A stretch of 54,927 nucleotides of DNA from a virus, in the IMG/VR virus record IMGVR_UViG_3300021425_000048, positions 1 to 54,927 of that record, one strand, 5' to 3'. Positions 5,415 to 52,600 of the stretch are shown in pieces. Each line of letters starts with the position of its first letter. The first letter of the stretch is position 1. Under the pieces are notes generated by a model. It ran no database searches and had not been told where the DNA came from. It saw only the letters and a list, made by a program, of their open reading frames with translations. The position numbers were made by a program, and so were the translations under genes.

Positions 5415-5487
5415 TACCCCTTGGTGTAATTGGCAACACGTCTGATTTTGGTTCAGAAGAGCGTAGGTTCGAACCCTGCAGGGGTAA
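5415..5487 (+). tRNA. tRNA-Gln (anticodon UUG)
   Basis: The acceptor TACCCCT pairs perfectly with AGGGGTA; the D stem is GTGT/ACAC; the anticodon stem TCTGA/TCAGA has loop TTTTGGT, giving UUG; the T arm is GTAGG-TTCGAAC-CCTGC. The layout, including the start at a weak U1-A72 pair, is typical of Bacteroidota tRNA-Gln. Confidence 0.93.
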
Positions 5488-5491
5488 CTCT

Positions 5492-5564
5492 CGGGATGTG
5501 GCGCAGTTGGTAGCGCACCGCGTTTGGGACGCGGGGGTCCTAGGTTCGAGTCCTAGTATCCCGA
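5492..5564 (+). tRNA. tRNA-Pro (anticodon UGG)
   Basis: The acceptor CGGGATG pairs with TATCCCG (one G-U); the D stem is GCGC/GCGC; the anticodon stem CCGCG/CGCGG holds loop TTTGGGA, giving UGG; the T arm is CTAGG-TTCGAGT-CCTAG. It lies four bases after tRNA-Gln, so both come from one precursor, which ends at the terminator just downstream. Confidence 0.93.
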
Positions 5565-5570
5565 CGAAAG

Positions 5571-5599
5571 GGCTGCAGAATATTCTGCGGCCTTTTTTT
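5571..5599 (+). terminator. Strong intrinsic terminator after the tRNA pair
   Basis: GGCTGCAGAA pairs with TTCTGCGGCC (5571-5592, one G-U), followed by seven T. It closes the tRNA transcript and insulates the receptor gene downstream. Confidence 0.9.
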
Positions 5600-5613
5600 A
5601 TAAAAGGATTACC

Positions 5614-5679
5614 TTAAAGAAAGCTAACGAGTTTCACTCGCTCCTAAGCTAACTTTAATTAATCATATACTTTCTTTAA
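5614..5679 (+). promoter_or_regulatory. Structured 5' leader of the receptor gene
   Basis: TTAAAGAAAG (5614-5623) is the exact complement of CTTTCTTTAA (5670-5679), closing a loop that itself contains the hairpin CGAGT/ACTCG (5628-5640). The 3' arm is also part of a 16-base element whose perfect complement lies after the stop codon (8443-8458), so the leader could pair with itself or with the 3' end of its own mRNA. A regulatory role is inferred. I see no clear copy of the other promoter classes in this leader. Confidence 0.5.
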
Positions 5680-5682
5680 TAA
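5667..5682 (+). repeat. Left arm of 16-bp inverted repeat around the receptor gene
   Basis: ATACTTTCTTTAATAA, 21 bases before the ATG at 5704. Its perfect reverse complement is at 8443-8458, nine bases after the stop. Such a long perfect match in two roughly 100-base flanks is not expected by chance. Confidence 0.85.
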
Positions 5683-5703
5683 CTAAATTAATCAAAACAA
5701 ATC

Positions 5704-8433
5704 ATGAAGAAAACAAAACATTTAATTATTTCAGGGTTAATGACATTACTCACTACGAGTATGTTTGCCCAGATTACAGGCCAAGTAAAAGACTTGGCTA
5801 CTAATGAACCTATTCCAGGTGCTAACATTATTGTTACTGGCACACAGGATGGTACAATTACTGATATGGATGGTATGTTCAAGCTTGGAGTGGAGCCTGG
5901 GACACCATTACAAATTTCATTTATCGGTTATGCTACATTAGATGTAGAGGCTACGAATGAAATGAAAGTTTCATTATCTATATCTGATAATGTACTAGGC
6001 GAAGTTTCAATTATTGCAAACGTTGCCGATTTTGCTAAGATCAGAGAAACACCAGTTGCAGTATCAACTATTGGTCCTTCTGAAATTTCTCTAAAGATTG
6101 GAAACCAAGAATTTCCGGAAATTATGAATACCACTCCTGGTGTATATGCAACCAAACAGGGAGGTGGTTACGGTGATTCTCGGATTAGCCTTCGCGGATT
6201 TGATCAACGTAACACATCATTCCTTATTAACGGTCAACCTGTTAATGACATGGAAAACGGTTGGGTGTATTGGTCTAATTGGCAAGGTTTAACTGATGTT
6301 GCATCAGGTATCCAAATCCAAAGAGGTCTAGGTGCTTCTCGTCTTGCTGTACCTTCTGTAGGTGGAACTGTTTCTATTTCTACTCGTGCTGCTGATAAAG
6401 AAGAAGGTGGATCTGTGGCGGAGACTATCGGTAATGATGGTTATAATAAAACATCTATTGTCTATAACACAGGAAAAAATGATAATGGATGGGCATCCTC
6501 ATTCTTATTAAGTAAGTGGGCAGGTAATGGATATGTTTATAATACTTCAGGTGAAGGTTGGACATATTTCGGCGCAATAGGTTATGAACCTGAAGGTTCT
6601 AATCATAAGCTTAACTTATCCGTTTTAGGAGCTGGGCAATGGCATAATCAACGTGATGTGTGGGTTTCTATTAGAGACTTCCAAAACTTCGGCGATCCTA
6701 ATGATGATGGTATAGACCAGCGATGGAATTCCAACGGTGGTACCTTAAACGGTGAAGAATACAGTATGCGTCGTAATTTTTATAACAAGCCATTAGCCAC
6801 ATTTAACTGGGATTGGGATATTAATGAAAACCTTACTCTTAATACTTCAATTTACGGATCTGCTGGTAGAGGTGGTGGAACTGGCCCTCGAGGTAAAAAC
6901 TATGATGTTTTACCTTATCGTAAAGACTTATATGAATTTATGTATGAGGATAGTGTAACGCAATTCCGTAATGATGATGGTACTGTTAACTATGATGCAA
7001 TCGTAGCAGATAACCAAGCAGGTGCTGGTGATGGTTACGGTGTAACAGATTCATTGACATCGAGCCCATTCTACGGTCAATTAGTTGGATCTAATGGTTA
7101 TGACGAGAATGGAGTATATAGTGGTGGAATGGTTCGTAGAGCTTCCATGAATTCTCATGATTGGGTTGGTGCAATCTCAAACCGACAATATGAAAAAGGG
7201 AATTGGAGAACATCACTCGGGTTAGATCTTCGTAGGTATAAAGGTTATCACTATCGTGCTATGAATGATCTTCTTGGTTTCGATGCTTACTATTCAACAG
7301 GTAATGATAATAACAGTGGTCAATTTATTAATACTACTGTTGATGCATCACCTTTCCAAAACACTGGACTTAATGGACCTAAAATTGATTACTACAATGT
7401 AGGTAATGTTAATTGGGCAGGTGTTAATGGTTTGGTTGAATATAGCAGTGAGGATAAATTAACTGCGGTTCTCCAAGGTGGTTTATCCAATCAGTCTTAT
7501 CAGAGAGAAGATTATTTTGACCAACCTAATAACCCTATATCTGATGTTGCTAACATTGGTGGTGGATATCTTAAAGGTGGTGCCAACTATAACATAGATA
7601 ATAAAAATAACGTCTTCTTTAATGCAGGCTTTATTTCTCGTCAGCCTATGTTTGATGGTGTCTTCCCAAGCTATGCTAATAACATTAATGATGATCTTCA
7701 GAATGAAGAAATCAAATCTGTTGAATTAGGATACGGTTATATAGGAAGTGAAGTAACAGTTAAAGCAAATGTATATGCAACTACCTGGGGTAATAGATTC
7801 CGCTCTTTGTCATTAACCAATGCACAAGGCATAGACGGTTTTGCACAGTTTAGTGATATTGACGTTCAACATAATGGTATTGAATTGGAGGCTACTTATA
7901 GACCAACCAATCGCCTTAAGTTTAACGGGATGCTCTCTGCTGGTGATTGGCGATATACTAAAGATTTTACTGCTACATTATATGATGATCAGCAACAAGA
8001 AATCGGTAATGGTACTCTTTACTTAAAGGATGCTAAAGTTGGTGATGCTGCACAATTTACTGCAAATGCAGGAGTTGATTATAGAATAGGTAAATTTAAT
8101 GTAGATGCTCGCTATCGTTTCGTTGACGGTTTATATGCTGACTATGCAATTACAGATTCTGAATTTACTAATCCTGATAACTTAGGCGCACTTCAGTTGC
8201 CTTCATACGGATTAATGGATTTAGGAACAACTGCAAGGTTTGAACTATTCGGTCATGACGCTACATTTAGAGTTAATGTAAATAACGTTCTAAACACCAC
8301 ATACATTGCCGAGTCAAATACTAATATCCATGCTGATGAAACATCAGATACTTGGAATGGTGTTGATACTCGTAACTTTGTTTGGTTTGGTTTCGGAAGA
8401 ACATGGAACGCTTCACTTAAGTATAATTTCTAA
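5704..8433 (+). CDS. TonB-dependent outer-membrane receptor
   Basis: The gene encodes 909 residues. A signal peptide at 1-22 ends in the flavobacterial FAQ pattern. Residues about 24-103 form a carboxypeptidase-regulatory-like beta domain (GQVKD...PIPGANIIVTGT...DMDGMFKL...SFIGY). The plug follows at about 115-228 (TPVAVSTIG, PGVYATKQGGGYGDSRISLRGFDQRNTSFLINGQPVND, GGTVSIST), then a 22-strand-type barrel with many aromatic belts, ending in KYNF, the terminal phenylalanine needed for outer-membrane insertion. The length is normal and no domain is broken. Hosts use such receptors for TonB-driven import of siderophores, glycans or vitamins. The substrate cannot be told; no SusD-like partner is next to it. 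It stands alone between terminators in an otherwise viral region. Confidence 0.96.
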   Translation: MKKTKHLIISGLMTLLTTSMFAQITGQVKDLATNEPIPGANIIVTGTQDGTITDMDGMFKLGVEPGTPLQISFIGYATLDVEATNEMKVSLSISDNVLGEVSIIANVADFAKIRETPVAVSTIGPSEISLKIGNQEFPEIMNTTPGVYATKQGGGYGDSRISLRGFDQRNTSFLINGQPVNDMENGWVYWSNWQGLTDVASGIQIQRGLGASRLAVPSVGGTVSISTRAADKEEGGSVAETIGNDGYNKTSIVYNTGKNDNGWASSFLLSKWAGNGYVYNTSGEGWTYFGAIGYEPEGSNHKLNLSVLGAGQWHNQRDVWVSIRDFQNFGDPNDDGIDQRWNSNGGTLNGEEYSMRRNFYNKPLATFNWDWDINENLTLNTSIYGSAGRGGGTGPRGKNYDVLPYRKDLYEFMYEDSVTQFRNDDGTVNYDAIVADNQAGAGDGYGVTDSLTSSPFYGQLVGSNGYDENGVYSGGMVRRASMNSHDWVGAISNRQYEKGNWRTSLGLDLRRYKGYHYRAMNDLLGFDAYYSTGNDNNSGQFINTTVDASPFQNTGLNGPKIDYYNVGNVNWAGVNGLVEYSSEDKLTAVLQGGLSNQSYQREDYFDQPNNPISDVANIGGGYLKGGANYNIDNKNNVFFNAGFISRQPMFDGVFPSYANNINDDLQNEEIKSVELGYGYIGSEVTVKANVYATTWGNRFRSLSLTNAQGIDGFAQFSDIDVQHNGIELEATYRPTNRLKFNGMLSAGDWRYTKDFTATLYDDQQQEIGNGTLYLKDAKVGDAAQFTANAGVDYRIGKFNVDARYRFVDGLYADYAITDSEFTNPDNLGALQLPSYGLMDLGTTARFELFGHDATFRVNVNNVLNTTYIAESNTNIHADETSDTWNGVDTRNFVWFGFGRTWNASLKYNF

Positions 8434-8442
8434 AAGCTTTTA

Positions 8443-8458
8443 TTATTAAAGAAAGTAT
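8443..8458 (+). repeat. Right arm of 16-bp inverted repeat around the receptor gene
   Basis: TTATTAAAGAAAGTAT, perfect reverse complement of 5667-5682. Its TTAAAGAAAG core is also a direct repeat of 5614-5623 in the leader. Confidence 0.85.
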
Positions 8459-8462
8459 TAGG

Positions 8463-8490
8463 GAGAGGGGCAATTGCCCCTCTCTTTTTT
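8463..8490 (+). terminator. Perfect 22-base palindromic terminator
   Basis: The stem from GAGAGGGGC to GCCCCTCTC (8463-8484) is fully self-complementary and followed by six T. It ends the receptor transcript, so the receptor is a monocistronic unit. Confidence 0.95.
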
Positions 8491-8541: not shown

Positions 8542-8742
8542 ATGATAATAGTAAGAAACAATGGTAAAGAATCTATCGATAAGATGCTTAAAAGGTATAA
8601 AAACAAAACCAAGAGAGTTAAGCAAATTCAATCAATAAGAGATAGAAAAGAGTATGAAAAACCATCAGCAGTTAAGAGAAAGAAAAAACTGAAGGCAATT
8701 TACAAACAGAGCATTAAAGATAAAGTTGAAAAAAGTTCCTAA
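8542..8742 (+). CDS. rpsU: Small ribosomal subunit protein bS21
   Basis: The gene encodes 66 residues and matches bS21 over its full length. It starts MIIVRNNGKESIDKMLKRYKNK (the family consensus is MI.V..ENESID.ALKRFK.K), followed by the basic helix with E-KPS-x-x-KRKKK. bS21 is the last protein to join the 30S subunit and sits by the anti-Shine-Dalgarno end of 16S rRNA. In Bacteroidota, bS21 with bS18 and bS6 is known to help hide that sequence. A phage copy could therefore exchange with the host protein and change which mRNAs start. The gene lies directly behind the receptor terminator and has no Shine-Dalgarno sequence; TATAAATA at 8518-8525 may be its promoter. Confidence 0.9.
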   Translation: MIIVRNNGKESIDKMLKRYKNKTKRVKQIQSIRDRKEYEKPSAVKRKKKLKAIYKQSIKDKVEKSS

Positions 8743-8795: not shown

Positions 8796-9293
8796 ATGGA
8801 CAACGTATCTTTTACCCTTGATGGGAACCAAAACACAGTTATCTTTGATCTTGACGGAACTATCGCAGATATCAACGATCGGAGGTCTATTTCCACAAAG
8901 GATAGCGGTAAGATGGACTGGGATAAGTTTTTTGATCCTGATAACATTGCATTAGATAAGCCTAATGTACCTGTTATTCAGATGATGAAGATCCTTAAGT
9001 CTCAAGGGCATTTTATTGTAATCTTTTCCGGCCGAAGTAAAGCAACTAAGGATGCTACAAAAAATTGGCTCTCTCAATTTGATGTACCATTTGACGTACT
9101 AAAGATGAGACCGACCGGCCATCCCTGGGCATTTATGCCGGATGATAAACTCAAGCAACACTGGTTAGATACCCTGTTTCCTGATGACAAGAAAAATGAT
9201 ATTCTTTGCGTCTTTGATGATAGGGATAAGGTAGTTAAGATGTGGAGAGATAACGGATTACACTGCTTCCAGGTTGCTGAAGGCAATTTCTAA
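8796..9293 (+). CDS. Polynucleotide 3'-phosphatase-like HAD protein
   Basis: The gene encodes 165 residues. HAD motif I is FDLDGTIAD with catalytic Asp18 and Asp20; motif II is FSGRS (about 76-80); motif IV is VFDDRDKVVKMWRDNGLHCFQVAEGNF at the C-terminus. The last stretch closely resembles the phosphatase domain of T4 polynucleotide kinase (PseT). The kinase half (P-loop) is absent, so it would only remove 3'-phosphates from DNA or RNA ends, preparing them for ligation. A DNA ligase sits 4 kb downstream under a near-identical promoter, fitting a shared repair role. Repair of host-cleaved tRNAs is another T4 precedent. Confidence 0.85.
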   Translation: MDNVSFTLDGNQNTVIFDLDGTIADINDRRSISTKDSGKMDWDKFFDPDNIALDKPNVPVIQMMKILKSQGHFIVIFSGRSKATKDATKNWLSQFDVPFDVLKMRPTGHPWAFMPDDKLKQHWLDTLFPDDKKNDILCVFDDRDKVVKMWRDNGLHCFQVAEGNF

Positions 9294-9480: not shown

Positions 9481-10053
9481 ATGTTTTTTAAATTCGATAA
9501 AGACAAGCTTCTATTTGATGAGGTTTGTTTAAAGACATGGACACTTTACCTAGCAGCTATTTTAATTGCAATTGGATCTCTTGGATACTTTATAGGTAAG
9601 TCAAAAGCAAAGGAAGTTGTAGTTAAACAATTACAAGAAGGCGAGGTTGAAATTATTATTGCTGAAGTGGATAGCTTTAATGTTGAATCTTTTATACAGA
9701 TGCTAAAAGATCTTAATGTACAATACCCACATATAGTTATGGCACAGTCAATCGTTGAAACTGGTCATTGGAAAAGTCATATCTTTTTAGAGAACCATAA
9801 TCTCTTTGGTATGAAACAGGCAAGACGTAGGATCACTACTGCCGAAGGCACCTCAAGAAATCACGCATACTATAATCATTGGAGGGAATCCGTGTATGAC
9901 TATGCATTTTACCAATGTAGGTATTTAAGTAAGATTAATTCTGAGGAAGAGTATTTTCAGTACCTAGATGCAAGTTATGCAGAAGCCAATAACTATGTAG
10001 GTTCTCTAAAGGTGGTTATTGAAAAAGAAAAACTAAGAGAGCTATTTGAATAA
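9481..10053 (+). CDS. Membrane-anchored glucosaminidase (endolysin candidate)
   Basis: The gene encodes 190 residues. One membrane segment lies at about 19-39 (TWTLYLAAILIAIGSLGYFIG), without a cleavage site. The C-terminal domain (about 65-190) matches the FlgJ/GH73-type N-acetylglucosaminidase fold: YPHIVMAQSIVETGHWKS with catalytic Glu93, NHNLFGMK at 105-112, and YNHWRESVYDYAFYQ. It should cut the glycan backbone of peptidoglycan from the periplasmic side of the inner membrane. The N-terminal anchor recalls signal-anchor endolysins, which are held inactive until released, although this segment is quite hydrophobic. It is followed by a bidirectional terminator. No holin is obvious nearby. 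Confidence 0.88.
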   Translation: MFFKFDKDKLLFDEVCLKTWTLYLAAILIAIGSLGYFIGKSKAKEVVVKQLQEGEVEIIIAEVDSFNVESFIQMLKDLNVQYPHIVMAQSIVETGHWKSHIFLENHNLFGMKQARRRITTAEGTSRNHAYYNHWRESVYDYAFYQCRYLSKINSEEEYFQYLDASYAEANNYVGSLKVVIEKEKLRELFE

Positions 10054-11773: not shown

Positions 11774-12110
11774 CTTAGTACTTGCATTTATACTCTTCTT
11801 TATCGGGCAATCATTAATATGGTTTCAATCAAATGGGCAGTTTGTATGGCCTTGGTTTAAAGAACATCCATGGACAATTTCAATCTTATTTGGTACTCTC
11901 GCTAGTTATATTTTTATTAAAGCTACCGCAGTTGTAGTAACTCATTTTGATGGTGTGTTATGGCCAGGTAGGTTTATTGGTTTTTCTAGTGGCATAGTTG
12001 TGTTTGCATTATGCACTTACATTTTTCTAGGAGAAGGCATTAACCTAAAAACAATAGTATCACTTATGTTAGCATTTGCTTTATTGTGTGTGCAGATTTT
12101 TTGGAAATGA
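11766..12110 (+). CDS. Four-helix membrane protein
   Basis: The gene encodes 114 residues with four hydrophobic segments at about 3-19, 37-58, 68-88 and 94-112, and almost no loops. The size and layout resemble half of a drug/metabolite-type transporter or small multidrug-resistance proteins, though I see no conserved glutamate in the first helix. It overlaps the 92-residue gene by eight bases and the DnaJ gene by four (ATGA), so it is made together with a co-chaperone. A holin role is conceivable but unsupported. Confidence 0.6.
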   Translation: MNNLVLAFILFFIGQSLIWFQSNGQFVWPWFKEHPWTISILFGTLASYIFIKATAVVVTHFDGVLWPGRFIGFSSGIVVFALCTYIFLGEGINLKTIVSLMLAFALLCVQIFWK

Positions 12111-12919
12111 AAGACCCTTATCAAATATTAGGAGTAAACAGAAATGCATCTGATGAAGACATAAAAAAGGCATATCGAAAATTGGCAAAGGAGCACCATC
12201 CTGATAAAGGTGGTGATGAAGGTAAATTTAAAGATATTGCAGAAGCATATGATTCATTGACTAATCCTACCAAGAAGTCTCAATTTAATTCTAATCCGTT
12301 TGGTGGTTTTGATGAATCATTTTTTGAAGACTTTATTAGAACTGGTGGGTATGGTAATGATGGGTGGGCTAACAATTTTAACCAAAGGTACGGATTTAAT
12401 ACTAAGGGCTCAAACACATCAGCACAAATATACATTACAATCGAAGAGGCTTACTTAGGTTGCCAAAAGGAAATAAGATTAGGAACTAAAACGGTTAGCG
12501 TTGATATTAAGCCGGGTGTTAAACCGGGTCAAAGAATGAGACTAAAAGGATTAGGTCAACGTGGAATGACAGAAGAACAAAACGGTGATCTAATTTTAAC
12601 AGTTTTATTGAAAGATGATCCAGATTTTTATTTAGACCAAAAAGGATTACATACGATAAAGAGAATATCTTTATATGATGCATTATTAGGTAGTAAAGGT
12701 GAAGTAAAAGTATTTGATAAGACTATACAATACAATATTCCTAAATGTGTTAGAAATGGTACAATGTTAAGAGTGAAGGGTAAAGGGTTTCCTAGTTATC
12801 ATAACCCTAGTATGTGTGGGGATTTTTTTATTAATATCCTCGTGGATTTACCAACAGAGTTATCTGAAGAACAGGAAGTGCTGATTAAAAAAATGAAAGA
12901 CTTAGAAAATGGAATTTGA
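12107..12919 (+). CDS. dnaJ: DnaJ-family co-chaperone (type II, no zinc finger)
   Basis: The gene encodes 270 residues from the ATG at 12107, which overlaps the previous stop; upstream in-frame codons are GTG/TTG only and lie inside that gene. The J domain is at 1-65 with HPD at 31-33, then a short Gly/Phe-rich linker (GGFDESFFEDFIRTGGYGNDGW), then the two beta-sandwich substrate domains (about 100-260, with IEEAYLGCQKEIRLG and IKPGVKPGQRMRLKGLGQRG). The four CxxCxGxG motifs are missing, as in CbpA-type proteins. It would recruit host DnaK to selected clients, probably for virion assembly or replication. Confidence 0.93.
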   Translation: MKDPYQILGVNRNASDEDIKKAYRKLAKEHHPDKGGDEGKFKDIAEAYDSLTNPTKKSQFNSNPFGGFDESFFEDFIRTGGYGNDGWANNFNQRYGFNTKGSNTSAQIYITIEEAYLGCQKEIRLGTKTVSVDIKPGVKPGQRMRLKGLGQRGMTEEQNGDLILTVLLKDDPDFYLDQKGLHTIKRISLYDALLGSKGEVKVFDKTIQYNIPKCVRNGTMLRVKGKGFPSYHNPSMCGDFFINILVDLPTELSEEQEVLIKKMKDLENGI

Positions 12920-13249: not shown

Positions 13250-14572
13250 ATGACTGAATACACAAACCTTACTTATTTACAATCCTTCTTGGATGAAATG
13301 AGATCTTCCTCTTCAGGAAATCATAAAATTGCAACTCTTAAAAAGTATGCCGATAATTCGGATGAGAATGAAGATAGAGAATTCCTCCAGAAGGTTTTCT
13401 TCTATACTTACAATCCTTATTATAAGTACAATGTTACTCCAAAGAATTGTAGGAAGAATTCAGATCTTCTAGGACATCCTAATACTTACGGTAGCATCTT
13501 TACCTTATTGGACGATCTTAGAAACCGGGTCTGTACTGGTCACTCTGCAATTGCTAATGTAAACCGCTTTATCCAAGAGTGGCCACAATGGGAGACAATC
13601 ATTTATTCAATTCTTAACCGAGATCTGAATATGGGCTGTGGCACTACTTCTATCAATAAGGCAATCCACCCAGAACTTATTCCTACCTTTAAGGTGGCTT
13701 TGGCAAATGCCTATAACCCTAAGAGAGTGGATTTTCAAAGCGGTGAATGGTACGGTTCTAGAAAACTGGATGGTGTCCGTTGTATCTGCCGTAAAGAAAT
13801 GAATACGGTTACCTTCTTTTCAAGGAACGGTAAAGAATTTGAAACTCTAGGTAAACTTGCCGATGAAATCTCTAAGATAGGTGGAGACTTTATCTTGGAT
13901 GGAGAAATCTGTATGGTAGATAAAGATGGCAATGAAGACTTCCAAGGAATCATGAAACAGATCCGAAAGAAGAATCATCAAATTGAAAATCCTAAGTTCT
14001 TTGTATTTGATTACTTAACTTTAGATGAATTTGATGATAAGGTTGGTACCACACCTCTTACCGAAAGACTCCACAATGGATATGACCGCCTCCCAGAAAA
14101 TATTAATTCAGATATGTTAGAATTCTTACCGCAAGTTCAATTGACTACTGAAGAACAATTTACCGAAATGGCTAAAGAAGCAGAAGAGGCTGGGTTTGAA
14201 GGTATCATGGTTAGAAAAAATACCGGGTATGAAGGTAAGAGAAGTCACAATCTTCTAAAGGTTAAAAAATTCCATGATGCTGAATACACGGTATTGGAAT
14301 GCATCAACGGTACCATGAGATGGACAGAAAACGGAAAGCAGATTGAAAAAGAAGGTCTAAGTAATATCATTATTGAACATAAAGGCAATAAGGTGAGTGT
14401 GGGATCTGGCTTCTCTAAAGAACAAAGAGAACACTATCTTAACAATCATAATGAACTAATTGGTAAAACCGTAACTGTTCAATATTTTGAAGAAAGTCAA
14501 AATCAGAACGGTGGATATTCATTAAGGTTCCCTGTAGTGAAACACATATATGAGAATGGGCGAGATTGTTAA
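13250..14572 (+). CDS. ATP-dependent DNA ligase
   Basis: The gene encodes 440 residues, near T4 gp30 (487). The adenylation motif I, SRKLDGVR, places the nucleophile at Lys172; motif III is ILDGEICM (about 220-227); motif IV is EEAGFEGIMVRK (about 313-324); motif V is LLKVKKF (about 337-343). The N-terminal 140 residues match the extra helical domain of T4-type ligases, and an OB fold closes the protein. It seals nicks during replication and repair. It has its own early-type promoter, shared in sequence with the 3'-phosphatase gene. Confidence 0.96.
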   Translation: MTEYTNLTYLQSFLDEMRSSSSGNHKIATLKKYADNSDENEDREFLQKVFFYTYNPYYKYNVTPKNCRKNSDLLGHPNTYGSIFTLLDDLRNRVCTGHSAIANVNRFIQEWPQWETIIYSILNRDLNMGCGTTSINKAIHPELIPTFKVALANAYNPKRVDFQSGEWYGSRKLDGVRCICRKEMNTVTFFSRNGKEFETLGKLADEISKIGGDFILDGEICMVDKDGNEDFQGIMKQIRKKNHQIENPKFFVFDYLTLDEFDDKVGTTPLTERLHNGYDRLPENINSDMLEFLPQVQLTTEEQFTEMAKEAEEAGFEGIMVRKNTGYEGKRSHNLLKVKKFHDAEYTVLECINGTMRWTENGKQIEKEGLSNIIIEHKGNKVSVGSGFSKEQREHYLNNHNELIGKTVTVQYFEESQNQNGGYSLRFPVVKHIYENGRDC

Positions 14573-16292: not shown

Positions 16293-19200
16293 ATGGCATT
16301 CAATCTTAAAGAATATATCATTTACAGGGATGAGGTTAAACGTGAATTGTTTAATAATGAAGTAGATGAAAATTTCAAAGCAGTAGCAAATCCATGGGTA
16401 GATAATAGAACCTATGAACAGGGACACGTTGTTTATCACCCTGTTGAAATTATTAATGAGACTGGTGGTACTAGTGTAGAATCAGAAGCGTTAGCTTGGT
16501 GGAGAGCAAATAAGAGAACAACACAAGGAGTATTTGAAACTTCTGAATGGGATTTGATTGGAGGTATTGGTACAGGTGATTTAACAGTTAATTCATCAAA
16601 TGGTTTCGGTAAGATATTAGTAAACTACACTGGCGCAACGCCATCTCTTCAGGCAGGTAACGATTTTCTTATTTCTTCTACTATACCAGATGATACTTTT
16701 AGATTGATTGCTGGTGCAGGAATGAGCTTACAGTATGATGACACTGTAAATGCAATAAAGATAATTAGCACTGGTGCCAGTGGTGAAATAAACCAAGGTA
16801 CTAATATTGGCGTAGGTGGCCAAAACATTTTTGGTGGTATGTCAGGTACCACGTTAACATTTAGAGGGATAACAGCATCAAACGGCTTTGGATCTGTTTT
16901 AACAGCTACACTAGATTCTGTTAATAATAATGTAGATATTAATTTTAATGAAGCTAATATTGATTTAGCTAACCTAAACAGTGGGTTACCTAAAATAAGT
17001 ATGTTATCAGATGTAAATGCACCTTCACCTAATCCTGCAGATTTTCTACAATGGAATGGTTCAAACTGGGTTAGTATTTCAGCAGCTGCTGCAGGTTTAA
17101 CTGGTTCCATTGGTGCAACTGGTGTTCAAGGTCCACAAGGACCACAAGGACCGCAAGGTGATGCCGGACCTATAGGAGCAACTGGTGTACAAGGGCCTCA
17201 AGGTTTAACTGGTGCAACTGGCACAGGTTTAACTGGTGCAACTGGTACAGAAGGCCCACAGGGACCTCAAGGTGATATAGGTGCAACTGGTACAGGTTTA
17301 GCTGGAGCAACCGGGTTAACTGGCTCTGGCGCAACTGGCGCAACTGGTACCGAAGGACCGCAAGGACCACAGGGACCTAAGGGTGATGATGGTGGTTTTG
17401 GTGGAGCTTCATTTAGTTATCAATTTAACACGGAAACTTCGGTAACTGATCCAGGTTTTGGATATGTTGGTTTAAATGATGCCGCCCCGCAGGATAATTC
17501 AACAATAATGATGATTAATGACTTTGGTGAAACTGGAGTTGACATATCATCATTTTTACAAACTATAGATTCATCAACATCAATACCAAAAGGCCATGTT
17601 AGACTTTCTTCTGCAGCAGATCCAAGTGAATTCATACTTTTTCAAATAACTGATTTAACTGATATGGCAGGTTGGTGGGACATTGATGTTATTGCAACTG
17701 CATCAACGGATCCTAGCCCATTTACTTTAGACGAAGAACTTATTGTTTCATTTGTTGTAACTGGTGAAAAGGGAGAAACTGGTGCAACTGGTATTCAAGG
17801 TGCAACTGGTACTGAAGGTCCACAAGGCCCACAGGGACCGCAGGGCGATATAGGTGCAACTGGTTTAGGTTTAACAGGTGCAACTGGTACTGAAGGTCCA
17901 CAAGGCCCACAAGGTGAAATAGGTGCAACTGGTATTCAAGGTTTAACTGGTGCAACTGGAGTTCAAGGTCCACAAGGTGATATAGGCGCAACAGGTGCAG
18001 AAGGACCACAAGGACCACAAGGTGCTACTGGTATACAAGGATTAGTTGGTCCACAAGGACCAGAAGGGCCACAGGGACCACAAGGTGATATAGGTGCTAC
18101 TGGGTTAACTGGACCTGCTGGTTCGGTTGCTGGATCTGTGGCATACGGTGAATTAACCCAAGTCGGCGGAGTTCCTACTTTAGCATTAAGCACTACATAT
18201 CAAGGTTGGTTAGGTACAGCAGGTGAATTAAATCAAATGACTAGCGTTGCTTCTGGTGGAGGTCAACAGGGTAATACTTTAGTTATTGATGCTGACGAAG
18301 GTGGTGTATATCAAATAAGTGCTACATATAATTTAGATATTGCACAAGGAGGTCTTATTTCAGCAGCCATATTTATAGGCGGTCTAATAGATTCAGCTAC
18401 TGAAACAAGCAGAAGTTATCAAAATAATTCAAATGGATCCTTTAGTATTACTGATTTGGTTGATCTTAGTGGTGGTGATGTAGTTGATGTTAGATTTAAA
18501 ATAGATTCTGGTACTACCACAATGACACCTATTAACATTGGCTTTAATTTAACAAAGCTAGTAGGTAACGGGGATGTAGGACCGCAAGGACCACAAGGAC
18601 CAATCGGTGCAACTGGCTCCGGTGCAACTGGTGCAACTGGTACCGAAGGACCGCAAGGACTGCAAGGTTTTATTGGTGCGACCGGTATTCAAGGACCACA
18701 GGGGCCGCAAGGTTTTATTGGTGCAACCGGTATTCAAGGACCACAGGGACCGGTAGGACCACAGGGACCGCAAGGTTTTATTGGTGCAACCGGCATTCAA
18801 GGGTTTGATGGACCGCAGGGTGCAACCGGAATACAAGGACCACAAGGTGATATAGGTGCAACTGGACCGCAGGGTGCAACCGGACCGCAAGGACCACAAG
18901 GAGACCCTGGTCCACAAGGACCGCAAGGTGCAACCGGTGTTCAAGGGCCACAAGGAGATATAGGCGCAACGGGTGCAGAAGGACCACAAGGACCGCAAGG
19001 TGCAACTGGTTTAGGTTTAACAGGTGCAACTGGTGTTCAAGGTCCACAAGGCCCACAAGGTGAAATAGGTGCAACTGGTATTCAAGGCCCACAAGGACCA
19101 GAAGGACCACAAGGTAGAATTGGTGCAACTGGTGCAACTGGCATTCAGGGACCTCAAGGACCTAAGGGTGATGGTGGTGATATAGGCGCAACTGGTGTTC

Positions 19201-20570
19201 AAGGTCCACAAGGACCAACTGGTGTTCAAGGTCCACAAGGACCGCAAGGTGAAACTGGTCAACAAGGACCCCAAGGACCACAGGGTGCAACTGGTGTTCA
19301 GGGTCCACAAGGACCAGAAGGACCACAAGGTAGAATTGGTGCAACTGGTGCAACTGGTGTTCAGGGACCTCAAGGACCACAAGGTGATATAGGCGCAACT
19401 GGTGTAGGTTTAACTGGTGCAACTGGTGTTCAAGGACCTCAAGGACCACAGGGACCTCAAGGTTTTATTGGTGCAACCGGTGTAGGTTTAACTGGTGCAA
19501 CTGGTGCAACTGGTGTCCAGGGCCCGACTGGGGTAGATGGATCAAATACTCTTAGATGGGAATATGAAACTGGTAGTATTGGGACTGCACCCACAGCTAC
19601 TAAATTTAGGACGGATAACACTACTCTTACCTCTATGACTTTTCTACATATCAATTACACTGATATAAATTCTAACCTGGTTACTAATTGGGTACAAAAT
19701 ATAGGGGATGGCGATACAATATCTGCGTACCAAGTGGATGATACTAGTCAGTTTGGGGTTTGGACAATTAATGGAAACCCATCCTATAATGCAAACTCCG
19801 CATTATTTGTTTTGAGTAACATATCAGGTAATGGCACACTATCTGCAGGTGAGAACTGGGCATGGTCTTATGTTAAAGACGGTCCGTCAGGGCCACAAGG
19901 TCCGTCAGGACCACAAGGGCCGCAAGGTGATACAGGTGCAACTGGTCCTGCTGGTTCAGGTGGAGGTACATTATTATTTTCTTCTACATTTACAGCTAGA
20001 TCAGCCCCACCGATAGTTGCCAATGGTTTTACACCTATTTATAACTTTGGTGAAGTAGGTTCAGCAGTTGAACCTGGTACTGCCACTTGGCAAGATGGGC
20101 GGACATCACCATTAAATTATAGTATTGGTGCTGGGATTGCTAATGCATTTAATTGGTATGAAGCTACAGTAGGTGCGCCAGCCGGTATTGATATAACCGA
20201 TGCGGATCAATTAAGATTAAGCGGTATAGCTGGTGTTTATGTACAAAGCGATGGTGGAAATTCACCTGATATTGCCACAAGAGTTAGATTTAGTGTAATC
20301 CGACCACCTATAAACCCCTCGGCTCCTACAATTACGGATATTGTATTAGGTGGAGCTGCCTTTGCACCCAATGGGACACCAACTCTAAATTTTACCACGA
20401 CAGGTGATAACGGTACGTATGTATCGTTTGATTATACATTCAACCCCGGAGTAAATATTAGCAGCGAAGATTTGATACTGATAGGTATTGGTTGGGAGAT
20501 GGCCTCTGGTGACCCACCGCCGGCTTCCAACGAATGGCACTTTAGGGATATTGCACTTCGTAAAGTATAA
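16293..20570 (+). CDS. Collagen-like tail fibre with C1q-like insert
   Basis: The gene encodes 1425 residues. The N-terminal domain (1-268) begins [15 protein letters not shown] and probably anchors the fibre. Four collagen-type Gly-X-Y blocks follow at about 269-371, 490-613, 759-1086 and 1196-1226, built mainly from GATG and GPQG units. Between them lie globular parts: 372-489; 614-758, which reads like a C1q/TNF jelly roll ([33 protein letters not shown]); 1087-1195; and a C-terminal domain (1227-1425). Collagen plus C1q-type modules form trimeric stalks and heads, so this is most likely an adhesion or host-recognition fibre. The repetitive DNA invites length change by recombination. Confidence 0.9.
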
Positions 20571-29147: not shown

Positions 29148-30320
29148 ATGATTGAACAAGAAATCACCGTCCAACTTAGCGACGATCCATTTGACACAAA
29201 AACAATTAAGGTACAAGTACCAAGAGGAACAAAGCTTTTAAGTAATGAACCATACACAGCAGAAGCACTAAAGATGTATGAGCTAGCCGATGAAGAGGCT
29301 GATAGGTTACAAAAATCAGAAGAACAAAATAATTACATCACACAAGGCGAAATTACTTCAATAAAAATAATTAAAGAAGTAATTGACGGAGTAGAGGTTG
29401 ATGTTAAAACAGAAGCACTCGTTGATATTTCTAAAAAGAACACTGCAGTTTGTAATTTACTTAAAGAAGATGAAGCAATCGTAGACCAATTGCAAGTTGG
29501 TATGATTATTGATATTAAAGTAAAATACAGTAAACAAGGGACTCTTTATGCTTCTATAAGCGAGGCGTTGGATGAAGTTAAACGAAATGAAATATATTCT
29601 TCAATTGGTGATAAGACCGTTGGGTTTACTGGTAAAGTAAAAGAATTAATCCACGGTGGATATTGGGTTGATGTTGGTGGTATAAAATGTTTTATGCCAG
29701 GTTCATTAGGTGGGTTAAACAAACTTCATAATTTTGAAAGTCTTATTGGCAAAGAGCTTGTTGTTATACCTATAACATATTCAAATGATAAAGATACCAT
29801 TGTAGTTTCTCATAGGGAATACTTAAGAACGATGATACCTACTACAACATCAGAGCTTAGAGAAAATATAAAAGAACATATTAGTGGGTTCGTTACAGGG
29901 ACTACTAAGTTTGGTGTATTTGCTGAATTCAATGAATGTTTAACTGGATTAATACCTAAAAACGAATTGGACGAAAATACTTTAGAATTATTTGATAATC
30001 GTTCAATTAGACCTGGGGATGAAATATCTTTCTGGCCTAAAGAAATTATTTCTGATAAAAAAATTATACTTAGTCAATTAGGACCTAAGATTGATTTATG
30101 GGATGGTGCAGATGAAAAGTATAAACCGATGATGACTACAAAAGGTAAAGTTACAAAAGTTACAAAATACGGTGCCTTTGTAGAACTCGAAAAAGGTATA
30201 AGTGGATTAATCCATAAATCTAAACTTAAGGGCGCAGAACTTGAAAAGGGTGATATGGTTGAAGTTAGAATCGGTAGTGTAAATACTAGTGATCGCAAAA
30301 TTACAATGAACCTAGTATAA
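29148..30320 (+). CDS. Protein with four S1 RNA-binding domains (bS1-like)
   Basis: The gene encodes 390 residues. After a 60-residue lead-in, four S1-type OB folds can be traced at about 64-142 (degenerate), 157-225 (FTGKVKELIHGGYWVDVGGIKCFMPGSL), 242-312 (ISGFVTGTTKFGVFAEFNECLTGLIP) and 328-390 (TKGKVTKVTKYGAFVELEKGISGLIH, the best match). Host bS1 has six; tandem S1 domains hold mRNA at the 30S platform and help start translation without a Shine-Dalgarno sequence. The gene sits between the baseplate hub and an amidoligase-like enzyme. With phage bS21 it makes two ribosome-directed proteins in one window. Transcription antitermination or RNase-type roles are alternatives. Confidence 0.88.
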   Translation: MIEQEITVQLSDDPFDTKTIKVQVPRGTKLLSNEPYTAEALKMYELADEEADRLQKSEEQNNYITQGEITSIKIIKEVIDGVEVDVKTEALVDISKKNTAVCNLLKEDEAIVDQLQVGMIIDIKVKYSKQGTLYASISEALDEVKRNEIYSSIGDKTVGFTGKVKELIHGGYWVDVGGIKCFMPGSLGGLNKLHNFESLIGKELVVIPITYSNDKDTIVVSHREYLRTMIPTTTSELRENIKEHISGFVTGTTKFGVFAEFNECLTGLIPKNELDENTLELFDNRSIRPGDEISFWPKEIISDKKIILSQLGPKIDLWDGADEKYKPMMTTKGKVTKVTKYGAFVELEKGISGLIHKSKLKGAELEKGDMVEVRIGSVNTSDRKITMNLV

Positions 30321-30361: not shown

Positions 30362-31660
30362 ATGTATACTAACGAGGAACTTAACGCTATACACTCTTCT
30401 AAGATTGGCTTTGAATTTGAATTTTTTTCAAACGAGGATTTAGATTCAACAAAGGATAGTCTTACACAAGCTCTTAATAAGAAAATCAGAGTAGAAGAAA
30501 AGGCCCATAGTGACTTTGCCCCTACCCAAGAAACCTTTAAATTAGAACCAGATAATTCTGGCGGAACCGGGATGATTGAGCTAGTCACAGGACCTCTTCC
30601 ATTTGTTGAAGCTAAGTTAGTCATGGCTAAAACTTTAAAATGGATTAGAGAAAACGGAAAGACCAATGAAAGATGTTCTATTCACGTTAACATTGCATTC
30701 GATGGAAAGAAGCTAGGTCCTATTACAAATATGTCTAAATTAGATATAGGTAAATTTGTACTTAATTTTGATGAAAACAAAGTATATGAAGCTTTCCCAA
30801 ATAGAAAAGATTCTGTTTATGCAAAATCAATAAAGTTTATTGTACCTTTGAGTGCTATGACACAACCGTCACCAGAAAAAAATCTTTGGAAGAACTATAT
30901 GTTTGTCAAAGAGAAGTATTATGGTATTAATTTTGGTAAGGTACCTAAAGGTTATATTGAATTTAGATACTTAGGTGGAAAGGATTATGAAAAGAAGTAT
31001 TCTACAATACTTTCAATGACCGAGCATTTTATTACTTCCCTATATGAAACTTTAGTTAATCCTCAATATAGTGAATCTGACTTAAAGGTTTTAGATAAGA
31101 TTTTAGAAAAACATAAAACTGTTGTTGAGTCTTATCGAACATATTCTGCCTTTAAAGAAAAATTTCCAAACATTCATTTAATGATTGATCTTCAGACATA
31201 TGATCAAATTGTTGAAATGTATTATCCTAAGATTAGAGAAAAGATTTTTGATTTAATTACAAAGGCTGATATGAATGAAGGTTTAATTAATTATGATGCT
31301 GATACAGGAAGAATACAAATTAAAGATGCAAAATTAATGAGATGCTTTGAAATAAGCGGAGTTGATATTGTTGATTCAGTTATTCAGGGTAACATTATTA
31401 ATTGTGATGTCTTTGGCTGTGATTTAAAAAATGCATCTGTATTTGAGTCTAATCTTTTTGGTGCAACTGTTGTAGAAGATTCAAAAATAGAAGAATCTTA
31501 TGTTAGTAGAAATGTAATTTGCCAAGACAGTTATGTATTTGGTAAAAGAGGTGTTTTTAGTGGCGAAATGGTTGGCGGTATCTTTAGACAAGGTAGAGCT
31601 ACTGGTCTTGCAAGATTTGGTGATAAAACTGAAATAATAGAAATAGAAAAAATTAAATAA
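30362..31660 (+). CDS. Amidoligase-like enzyme fused to a beta-helix tail
   Basis: The gene encodes 432 residues. The N-terminal part shows motifs of the amidoligase family (glutamine-synthetase/COOH-NH2 ligase fold): GFEFEF at 16-21, ELVTGP at 73-78, CSIHVN at 105-110 and EFRYLGGKDYE near 200. These enzymes use ATP to join a carboxyl and an amine, for example on peptides or cell-wall components. From about 320 a pentapeptide-like beta-helix follows (MRCFEISGVDIVDSVIQGNIINCDVFGCDLKNASVFESNLFG). A late-type promoter precedes it and only four bases separate it from a virion gene, so it may modify a virion protein. The substrate is unknown. Confidence 0.75.
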   Translation: MYTNEELNAIHSSKIGFEFEFFSNEDLDSTKDSLTQALNKKIRVEEKAHSDFAPTQETFKLEPDNSGGTGMIELVTGPLPFVEAKLVMAKTLKWIRENGKTNERCSIHVNIAFDGKKLGPITNMSKLDIGKFVLNFDENKVYEAFPNRKDSVYAKSIKFIVPLSAMTQPSPEKNLWKNYMFVKEKYYGINFGKVPKGYIEFRYLGGKDYEKKYSTILSMTEHFITSLYETLVNPQYSESDLKVLDKILEKHKTVVESYRTYSAFKEKFPNIHLMIDLQTYDQIVEMYYPKIREKIFDLITKADMNEGLINYDADTGRIQIKDAKLMRCFEISGVDIVDSVIQGNIINCDVFGCDLKNASVFESNLFGATVVEDSKIEESYVSRNVICQDSYVFGKRGVFSGEMVGGIFRQGRATGLARFGDKTEIIEIEKIK

Positions 31661-49801: not shown

Positions 49802-52600
49802 ATGGCAATCACAATACAGGAATTAATAGCCTCTGATACTATTTCACAGGTAGTTGATAAGATTAATTTTAATTTTGATCAATTACTATTGAATGGTGGT
49901 GGGCCAATAGGACCAGCCGGGCCAATTGGACCTCCTGGGCCAATAGGAGGAAGAGGTGAACGAGGTACTGAATGGTATGAAGGTACTGATGATCCTAACG
50001 TTACACCACCAACATTATCGCCTTTAACTGCCGATTATTATCTGCAGGCCAATGGTGATGTTTGGGAATATACAGGTTTAACGTGGTCAAATACTGGAAT
50101 AAATCTACGAGGACCGCAAGGAGCACAAGGTATTTCGGTTGGGTGGTCTCAGTTTGGAAATAGCCCATATCCTACATATGCAGCAAATTTTCAAAATGTT
50201 TTATACCCATCACCGATAACTAGCGGTATAACAGTTAGTAACCAAGGTGTTGCCTCTACATTAATTGGTGCAGTAGGACCTAATGATGTTTCTGCAAATC
50301 CTGGGATACCTTTTACTCCTGCATATCAGCTTAATACGACAATGGCAGGTAGCATTGATTCATCTATAGTTTCAATGTTAGTTCACCAAAAAGACAGTTC
50401 TTCGCAAGCAATTAAATTTATGGGCGGTGGTGCAATTGCAGGTGATAATTTTGAACAGAGTTCAATTTCATTATTATCATCTATTTCATTAGGTGTAGAC
50501 GATTCTCTTATAGTTAATGTACCTAAAGCAATAACAGGTGCACCTGGCTCAGTATCAGATACATACGGATTTAATATATACACTCTCGAAAAAGCACAGC
50601 GGTACAGATCAGGTAGATCTATTTCATTTACTACTGGTACGATAGGGAATACTTTAACTGGACCTTATGATATATCAGATTTTACTATTGAATTAAATGC
50701 AGTTAATAATTCACAATTGCCTAAATTTGAAGTAATTGCAGTTGGGTCAGAAAGTGCATCACTAACAGTAGGAAATGTTTCGTTACCTACAACAACTATT
50801 GATACTGGTTCAATATCATTAACCGCAGGAGATATAGGATTATTAGCAGAAGGTTTAATAAGAATATCATCTTTGGCTAATGAATGGGTTTTTCCTAATT
50901 TACAAAATACTACAATTAGCCCTGTAGGTTTAGTTTCTATAGATTCTTCAGGTAGGCTAGGTACTATAACTGATAGCTCATCAGGATTTCCTACAGGTCA
51001 ACTATCATGGGATGGTTCTAATTTAGATGGGAGTCAAGGTGTTGATACCAGGGTAGTAAGATGGGACGGCAACAACAAGATAGAAAGCTCCGCATGGGAA
51101 ATAAAGGACACTGGTGAACTGTTACCAATCACATTAGCATCAACACCTAATATAGGAAGTAGCACTAATAGATTAGAAAAAATATTTTTTGGTAAAACTA
51201 ATAGAAGTGATATTAGTTCAGAGTTTCTTGGTGGTACTGAATTTTTAAATATCTTTAATAATTACCAATCAAAGGGAATACAGATAAACGGAAATGGAAC
51301 CTTTATTGGTACATATACAGGAGTTACTAATAAAGCATCTATGCAATATGCTGATAGCTCATTACAAATAAGTAGTAATCTCCAAAGTGGTAGCTATAAA
51401 GCTGGACAAATAGAATTCAAGCAATCAGGAGGTAACAGCCCTTCAGTAGAAGGGCCAATGATTATCGGTCCTATTGCTACTAGCCTCACCGATGGGCCAA
51501 CACAGGGTAATACCTTAACGATTAAAGGTGGTTCTGGGTTTACTTTGGCAAATAATTTCACAAATGGAGGTCGTGGTAGATCTATTGTAATATCAGGTGG
51601 TGATGCCCGTGCTAATCAAAGTGGTGGAACTGTTTTTATTGGTGGGGGTGAACATGGCCCTAGCACTGGCCCTACATTCAACGGCAATGTTTGGATAGGA
51701 CGGAACCCATATGCTACCTCAGGGAGTGAAACTTCTCCTAGTATTAAATTTGGTGAAACCGGTTCAGACAGCGGGTATATTACTGTAATTCAACCAAGTG
51801 ATACAAATTTATATACTGCTGGAGAAAACTACATAGCTTCATTTGTTAAGAATAGTTCAACTGCTAATGCTAAGGGCAGGCTGCAGTTAAGAGACTTGGA
51901 TGGAACGTCACAGCTTAATTTTGGCGTTAATGTAACAACTTCCGCATTTTCCTCTAATGCATTTTATACCAGGCTGGGTGATAGTTTGATATCAGCAGAA
52001 AGTGATATTAATGGTGATGAGGGTGGATTGGCTATAATTTACCAGAATAAAAAAGGTGGTATCAGACTAGATGGTCAAAACCAAAAGGTTATGATAATGG
52101 GTAATACTAACCAATCGTTGACTCAGACTGCAATTGATACTAATGCTAACGGTCAATATGATTCAACCGTTGGGGTTTACATGGAAGGTGATATTCATAT
52201 CTCGACAAATAATAATATAATTACTGCTGTAGATAAGGACAGATACATAATGTTGTCAGGTAATTATGAAGGTGATGACGTTGTGAGTGGTCAGCCGATA
52301 ACTGAATTGGAGATGAATTGGACTAGAGTAGGGCGTATTGTTACTGTTCACTTTTATTTGGTTCACACTTCGGCTAGTGGCGATAGAGTGTTACCTTTCC
52401 CTATAAATAGTTCTGGAAATAGCGGTACACCTACAAATGTGTTTGGTTCTGGGACTGCTTATAATTTTTCCGGTTCATTAACAAAACCTTTATTTGTTGA
52501 CTTGAGCGGGAACGGATGGAAATTAAACGATCAAACCGCTGGCGGTTATAGCGACCCTAACGGTAAAGCCATGGGCTCATTTAGTTACGAATTATTATAA
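49802..52600 (+). CDS. Tail fibre with short collagen-like segment
   Basis: The gene encodes 932 residues. The start MAITIQELIASDTISQ matches the short fibre at 38399. A collagen-type run (GPIGPAGPIGPPGPIGGRGERG) occupies about 36-58. A long beta-rich shaft follows with Ser/Gly/Asn-rich turns, including LTAGDIGLLAEGLIRISS, SIVISGGDARANQSGGTVFIGGGEHGP, and phage-fibre strand patterns. The C-terminal 120 residues (RVGRIVTVHFYLVHTSASGDRVLPFPI) look like a compact receptor-binding tip. It is probably a second adhesion fibre beside the one at 16293. Confidence 0.8.
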   Translation: MAITIQELIASDTISQVVDKINFNFDQLLLNGGGPIGPAGPIGPPGPIGGRGERGTEWYEGTDDPNVTPPTLSPLTADYYLQANGDVWEYTGLTWSNTGINLRGPQGAQGISVGWSQFGNSPYPTYAANFQNVLYPSPITSGITVSNQGVASTLIGAVGPNDVSANPGIPFTPAYQLNTTMAGSIDSSIVSMLVHQKDSSSQAIKFMGGGAIAGDNFEQSSISLLSSISLGVDDSLIVNVPKAITGAPGSVSDTYGFNIYTLEKAQRYRSGRSISFTTGTIGNTLTGPYDISDFTIELNAVNNSQLPKFEVIAVGSESASLTVGNVSLPTTTIDTGSISLTAGDIGLLAEGLIRISSLANEWVFPNLQNTTISPVGLVSIDSSGRLGTITDSSSGFPTGQLSWDGSNLDGSQGVDTRVVRWDGNNKIESSAWEIKDTGELLPITLASTPNIGSSTNRLEKIFFGKTNRSDISSEFLGGTEFLNIFNNYQSKGIQINGNGTFIGTYTGVTNKASMQYADSSLQISSNLQSGSYKAGQIEFKQSGGNSPSVEGPMIIGPIATSLTDGPTQGNTLTIKGGSGFTLANNFTNGGRGRSIVISGGDARANQSGGTVFIGGGEHGPSTGPTFNGNVWIGRNPYATSGSETSPSIKFGETGSDSGYITVIQPSDTNLYTAGENYIASFVKNSSTANAKGRLQLRDLDGTSQLNFGVNVTTSAFSSNAFYTRLGDSLISAESDINGDEGGLAIIYQNKKGGIRLDGQNQKVMIMGNTNQSLTQTAIDTNANGQYDSTVGVYMEGDIHISTNNNIITAVDKDRYIMLSGNYEGDDVVSGQPITELEMNWTRVGRIVTVHFYLVHTSASGDRVLPFPINSSGNSGTPTNVFGSGTAYNFSGSLTKPLFVDLSGNGWKLNDQTAGGYSDPNGKAMGSFSYELL

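Follow-up and report, generated by a model that had tools for sequence, protein, structure and literature searches.

TonB-dependent receptors (TBDRs) are classic phage receptors. Most described phage cargo genes and AMGs act inside the cell, in the cytoplasm or at the photosystem, and the temperate phage PA-2 carries a whole outer-membrane barrel, the passive trimeric Lc porin, which changes the host surface. Cor of the phages phi80 and N15 inactivates FhuA (PMC11436027). For a TBDR carried by a phage itself we found one precedent, the putative SusC of the marine megaphage Mar_Mega_1, which is proposed to raise carbohydrate uptake (PMC9723777).

The window, i.e. the whole stretch of DNA that was analysed, is a virus record of 54,927 bases; it is a fragment, so its gene content covers 55 kb only. 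PHROG matches include baseplate wedge and hub, a head-tail adaptor and a T4-type ligase. The open reading frame at 5704-8433 on the plus strand runs from ATG to TAA without internal stops (909 aa), and its product is an intact TBDR in a contractile-tailed Bacteroidota phage. The features of the receptor and its surroundings are:

5415-5488, plus strand: tRNA-Gln (TTG), by ARAGORN; left border of the slot, common to receptor-less relatives
5492-5565, plus strand: tRNA-Pro (TGG), by ARAGORN; directly followed by bS21 in some receptor-less relatives
5567-5596, plus strand: terminator-like palindrome with T-run right behind tRNA-Pro, by inverted-repeat search and sequence reading
5704-8433, plus strand: TBDR gene, 909 aa, by Pfam, AlphaFold2 model and fold match
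5704-5769, plus strand: signal peptide, residues 1-22 (...TSMFAQ/ITGQ), by sequence reading
5773-5979, plus strand: CarbopepD_reg_2 (PF13715), N-terminal carboxypeptidase-regulatory-like domain, residues 24-92, Pfam 1.8e-16
5992-6015, plus strand: TonB-box-like VLGEVSII ahead of the plug, about residues 97-104, by sequence reading
6040-6366, plus strand: Plug (PF07715), residues 113-221, Pfam 1e-11
6403-8430, plus strand: 22-strand beta-barrel with long outer loops L3, L4, L5 and L11, ending in Phe909, by AlphaFold2 secondary structure
8463-8490, plus strand: GAGAGGGGCAATTGCCCCTCTC followed by T6, terminator-like palindrome right behind the receptor, by sequence reading
8542-8742, plus strand: ribosomal protein bS21, by Pfam; closes the slot on the right in relatives with the empty site
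8796-9293, plus strand: PNKP-type HAD phosphatase, by Pfam; syntenic right neighbour in relatives
9481-10053, right of the receptor: lysin, by PHROG
13250-14572: DNA ligase, further from the receptor

All three Pfam matches exceed the curated cut-offs, the third being the TonB_dep_Rec barrel (PF00593; residues 371-862, 1.6e-12); the assignment of the barrel strands is our own, based on the secondary structure of the AlphaFold2 model. This model, built with 107 sequences, is a plug-in-barrel (mean pLDDT 83.9, pTM 0.80) with FhuA as the best solved structural match (E 2e-43, 15% identity). The Plug inside a 22-strand barrel that marks a TBDR is found by Pfam, in the model and through the FhuA and FecA matches, and signal peptide, TonB box and C-terminal aromatic residue are found by sequence reading and simple patterns. 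Such patterns, which are no trained predictor, detect a signal-peptide-like N terminus in 54 of 56 aligned viral homologues, a C-terminal Phe likewise in 54/56, and the TonB box in 49/56 viral and 40/51 bacterial rows. The N-terminal regulatory-like domain is missing in some phage and bacterial homologues. The preliminary description of this DNA, which had read the gene as a full-length, apparently functional phage TBDR and named structure prediction and a search against receptor families as a check, is borne out.

Membership in the SusC/RagA group was considered and rejected. The NCBIfam model TIGR04056 reaches 92.7 bits against a cut-off of 368.25 and covers residues 23-179 only, and no SusD adjoins, the immediate neighbours being the tRNAs, bS21, the PNKP-type phosphatase and the lysin. 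Because the model matches the N-terminal part alone and far below its cut-off, we call the protein a TBDR and not a formal SusC.

As to the location, tRNA genes and bS21 do enclose the receptor as was first described, whereas the ligase named with them is not adjacent. The palindrome at 5567-5596 would set the receptor apart from the tRNA operon, and similar hairpins stand behind most phage receptor copies inspected; a simple terminator scan listed neither palindrome of the window, so both were assigned by reading the sequence. No receptor promoter was identified by a simple scan that performed at chance level, and the Rfam matches in the window are tRNAs only, with no riboswitch or structured leader. 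An imperfect 21-nt inverted repeat (5667-5687/8438-8458) flanks the gene, but was set aside as a pair of mobile-element ends, being absent as a conserved feature in other phages.

Some further genes of the window deserve mention. A small PspC-domain protein (PF04024; 9274-9477), possibly related to envelope stress, is encoded near the lysin, and a PspC-like ORF was likewise seen by eye in contig L320. An S1-domain protein (29148-30320) is, like bS21 (8542-8742), translation-related. The 1425-aa collagen-repeat protein at 16293-20570 (PF01391), which contains a GC-rich repeat block, is probably a tail fibre, and a further GPIGPPGP run lies at 49901-49948. Inside the tail gene region an Amidoligase_2-like domain is found at 30362-31660, barely over the cut-off.

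The expectation that related phages carry the same gene in the same place holds for L002, L003 and L052, in which the receptor has the same neighbours and which were assembled from other metagenomes. Window and these contigs share 98-100% nucleotide identity across about 5475-8480. The flanks of L002/L003 show about 72% identity just upstream and about 80% just downstream of the block, while in L052 the high-identity block extends through bS21 and other blocks break elsewhere. As far as the alignments tell, sister phages have recombined into mosaics here. Within the block the copies differ by a few substitutions, and therefore they are not simply one sequence that the assembler used repeatedly.

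Relatives found by means of the ligase share the gene order coiled-coil-like ORF, tRNA-Gln, sometimes tRNA-Pro, bS21, HAD phosphatase and lysin. The receptor is absent in most of those that are sufficiently long; the borders of the empty site are clean, and in the cases read out 119-206 bp separate the end of the coiled-coil-like ORF and bS21. Wider spacing occurs in L172, L174, L176 and L177, and in L172 a different 291-aa gene without Pfam match (L172:2547-3422) fills the same cargo slot. Since relatives show tRNA-Gln(-tRNA-Pro) next to bS21 without the receptor, we regard it as optional cargo in a tolerated slot. Close bacterial homologues (61-69% identity) and an empty site in close relatives agree with an AMG or moron; terminator-like palindromes occur on both sides of the gene.

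The preliminary description knew of no well-described case of a lytic phage with such a gene. The receptor does not stand alone, however, but is one member of a large family carried by phages: scanning IMG/VR turned up relatives encoded in 425 viral stretches. The best 80 of these 425 span different phage backgrounds, including one with B-family polymerase, clamp loader and clamp, others with a T7-type primase-helicase or a UvsW-like helicase, and further ones. As Terminase_6N is present in just two of 46 records, PHROG replication and structural genes were taken as phage hallmarks. All 35 phage records tested have one or more Plug proteins and 34 of them exactly one; G008 (253 kb) has a second, unrelated Plug protein (661-aa frame, 233192-233494). 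Bacteroidota chromosomes usually hold many TBDRs, hence a single Plug per record argues against contamination.

The bacterial homologues comprise type B, 61-69% identical to the window receptor, and type A with 41-46%. Type B is found in chromosomes of Gracilimonas, Polaribacter, Roseivirga, Robiginitalea and Ekhidna. Scanning viral contigs with a type-A protein revealed no type-A phage copy, although rare ones may escape this pattern-based scan; the matches reach 41-47% only and are mostly the same type-B loci. Thus, within the contigs scanned, phages favour one TBDR subfamily, type B. In Bacteroidota a slot with the order M23 peptidase-pgi-TBDR accounts for 14/33 type-B and 18/35 other copies with enough flank, and the two types apparently substitute for each other in this slot (e.g. 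L088, L094, L131).

Viral and bacterial copies are intermingled in the tree, whose well-supported branches force at least 10 to 12 changes. Parsimony leaves the direction of transfer between phages and bacteria ambiguous, as 12 captures plus 4 donations tie with one capture plus about 15 donations; phages may spread the type-B subfamily among bacteria. IMP dehydrogenase (IMPDH) is encoded directly upstream of the receptor in 17-18 phage loci, and NrdA/NrdB near the receptor in some other phages. ExbD was sought in the 13 larger phage records, among them the window, and was not found.

Between pairs of phage receptors dN/dS is 0.035-0.25, with 0.45 for one near-identical pair. Judged by these ratios the viral copies are under purifying selection. 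Their average identity is 91% in the plug, 74% in the barrel strands and 75% in the outer loops, with loop borders set by us from DSSP; variation is concentrated in the periplasmic turns (50%) and in the N-terminal domain (45%), which is often lacking. The plugs of viral copies are on average about 90% identical to those of type-B bacterial copies. Conservation of plug, TonB box and outer loops suits an importer of one fixed ligand and not a variable decoy; for a decoy or escape variant one would anticipate variable outer loops and no need of a TonB box.

Behind the receptor, several phages encode a small membrane protein, a secreted S1/P1 nuclease and an AAA_28 protein (an example of the nuclease region is L038:11807-13107, with the S1/P1 enzyme at 11807-12565). 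Because starting from the receptor biases this association, we scanned viral contigs the other way round, with two phage S1/P1 nucleases, and obtained 26 contigs, 24 of which are informative in having at least 0.9 kb upstream of the nuclease. A TBDR lies upstream in 23 of these 24: 21 are of type B and two are unrelated; L309 is the sole informative contig without one. The type-B receptors are on the same strand, mostly 54-409 bp from the nuclease and in one case 1766 bp. The different TBDRs belong to L318 (L318:892-2868; 658 aa, Plug and barrel, 25% identity over 177 aa to the window receptor) and to L320, which holds the C-terminal part of an L318-type TBDR (97% identical). When the nucleases are grouped at 95% identity a TBDR accompanies 16 of 17 groups, and along the receptor tree the presence of the nuclease switches nine times.

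The zinc-site motifs are retained in the phage nucleases, whose alignment with solved S1/P1 enzymes starts at the mature Trp1. The nucleases are mostly located upstream of the AAA_28 protein, which is nucleoside/nucleotide-kinase-like: its model (pLDDT 84.9) has NadR, deoxyadenosine kinase and thymidylate kinases as nearest folds. L306 encodes in addition a secreted Endonuclease_NS upstream and a protein with a weak phosphoribosyltransferase-like match downstream. The converse fails, with an S1/P1 nuclease in only 8 of 46 TBDR-bearing phage records and none in the 55 kb of the window. In bacteria the pair is rare (2/39 type-B loci, within their flanks); bacterial L103 combines a type-B TBDR with an S1/P1 nuclease and a Na+-nucleoside transporter, with an Endonuclease_NS nearby.

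Three jobs had been suggested for the receptor: masking or replacing the receptor used by the phage, boosting uptake during infection, or acting as a decoy. TonB box, plug, outer loops and the coupling to nucleases favour uptake and make masking or decoy less attractive. The preliminary interpretation is partly supported. With all ligands taken together, energised import during infection is probably the function. The gene, a host-type accessory cargo with terminator-like borders between tRNA genes and bS21, would be expressed during infection, and its product would be inserted into the outer membrane by the Sec/BAM pathway of the host and energised by the host TonB-ExbB-ExbD system, the 13 phage records being without ExbD. 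It would then import one fixed, valuable ligand into the periplasm and in this way feed phage production. Our best guess for this ligand is oligonucleotides, nucleotides, nucleosides or their phosphate, because elsewhere this gene is paired with an S1/P1 nuclease and a kinase-like protein that lie downstream of it. That a nucleic-acid-derived ligand is imported and feeds phage production seems to us well conceivable, if not quite probable. Against such a ligand count the nuclease-less window, the 8/46 records, the bacterial pgi slot and the GH16-like neighbours; the bacterial neighbourhood as a whole gives a mixed picture, with pgi slot, GH16-like genes and nuclease plus nucleoside transporter.

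More tentatively, we propose that Bacteroidota phages carry a mobile outer-membrane module for scavenging nucleic acids, consisting of TBDR, S1/P1 nuclease and kinase-like protein, sometimes also Endonuclease_NS. The secreted nuclease beside the receptor is found in other phages and is lacking in the window, whose phage would hold the receptor part. With such a module an infected cell could feed on DNA or RNA from outside, such as that released by lysed neighbours, and turn it into phage genomes.

A somewhat doubtful alternative is that the receptor imports another nutrient during infection, such as laminarin-type oligosaccharides, iron, a cofactor or phosphate. All evidence for a working importer applies equally here, some bacterial type-B copies were seen by eye beside GH16-like or SusC/SusD-like genes (L100, L105, L107) and others follow pgi, the di-iron protein NrdB is a neighbour in some phages, and carbohydrate uptake is the role proposed for the SusC of Mar_Mega_1 (PMC9723777). 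However, the nuclease-first scan ties the phage copies to nucleases (23/24 contigs), and the neighbourhoods of the inspected phage copies, as far as they are annotated, revealed neither a glycoside hydrolase nor a SusD.

We think it unlikely that the receptor serves superinfection exclusion or receptor substitution, where a phage TBDR would rival or replace a host TBDR used as phage receptor and, in the other phages, the periplasmic nuclease would cut incoming DNA. TBDRs do serve as phage receptors which phages disable (Cor and Llp act on FhuA), the phage copies are similar to host alleles from a conserved slot of the chromosome, and destroying incoming DNA would also suit a secreted nuclease encoded beside the receptor. 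But the outer loops are among the conserved parts and not hypervariable, the TonB box is kept though a decoy needs none, and neighbours such as the kinase-like protein, IMPDH and RNR are more in keeping with nutrition. To our knowledge superinfection-exclusion proteins are small, in contrast to the 909 aa found here. PADLOC gave no defence-system match for the receptor or the S1/P1 nuclease.

Still less probable is a passive or indirectly selected cargo, i.e. a host gene moved by recombination, or a bacteriocin decoy, of little benefit for the phage. The recent, patchy block in the clade of the window, the empty site in most relatives and the ambiguous direction of transfer would suit it; purifying selection, an old all-viral clade of 27 tree rows and the recurrence of one subfamily in unrelated phage backbones speak against it. 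An assembly chimera, named beforehand as what would overturn the finding, or misfiled bacterial contigs can practically be rejected although IMG/VR records are fragments and similar genes do get misassembled, because the block recurs at about 98-100% identity with diverged flanks and in the same slot across independent assemblies, phage replication and structural genes surround the receptor, most records of even 113-276 kb have a single Plug protein, the two largest contain a terminase, and the empty site has clean borders. Returning to import as the preferred reading, our data suggest that many uncultured Bacteroidota phages remodel the surface of the infected cell for food, possibly fragments of DNA or RNA.

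The type-B phage subfamily and the nuclease module appear undescribed in the literature covered. Among 50,697 GenBank phage records there is no receptor relative above 60% identity (records very near the window may be excluded) and no match to the S1/P1 nuclease; the literature search, which left preprints and many journals outside, returned no paper on the subfamily, phage S1/P1 nucleases or the module. The SusC of Mar_Mega_1 and LR745206 resembles the window receptor in being a full TBDR of the same fold on a marine phage. The viral structure library contains a single further full TBDR, BFVD entry A0A8D9FQQ5 from an "uncultured marine phage", which represents another subfamily, being 13% identical when structurally aligned; LR745206 covers 22% of the window receptor at 35% identity. 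SusC of this type is reported in megaphages only, and the passage concerned mentions no nuclease module (PMC9723777).

The chromosomal type-B TBDRs have the same domains and 61-69% identity over the full length; they differ in being chromosomal, in standing behind M23 peptidase-pgi in 14/33 cases and in almost never adjoining an S1/P1 nuclease. FhuA, FecA and PqqU of E. coli share the plug-in-barrel fold, and FhuA is without an N-terminal regulatory-like domain of this kind; as these and other matches have 11-15% identity and span many ligands, structure is uninformative here and their ligands are not transferable. The FhuA complex with the T5 protein Llp (8a60) is also among the structural matches. 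Cor and Llp are likewise phage proteins which act on outer-membrane TBDRs in infection, but they bind and block a TBDR of the host, whereas the window phage encodes the TBDR itself. The Lc porin of PA-2 is, like the receptor, a phage-carried outer-membrane barrel, although it is passive and not TonB-driven.

With an outer-membrane importer that is widely shared and selectively maintained, phages would also reshape what the cell takes up as food, and would alter the surface on which adsorption of phages, sensitivity to bacteriocins and host range depend. A module that feeds on nucleic acids would connect lysis by phages with dissolved DNA and the cycling of phosphorus in aquatic Bacteroidota. 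The preference for one subfamily and its physical link to a secreted nuclease in several lineages make ligand and purpose testable. With AMGs and morons the receptor has in common that it is a host-type accessory gene with terminator-like borders and variable presence at a cargo slot; compared with them it would extend phage-directed nutrition to the outer membrane.
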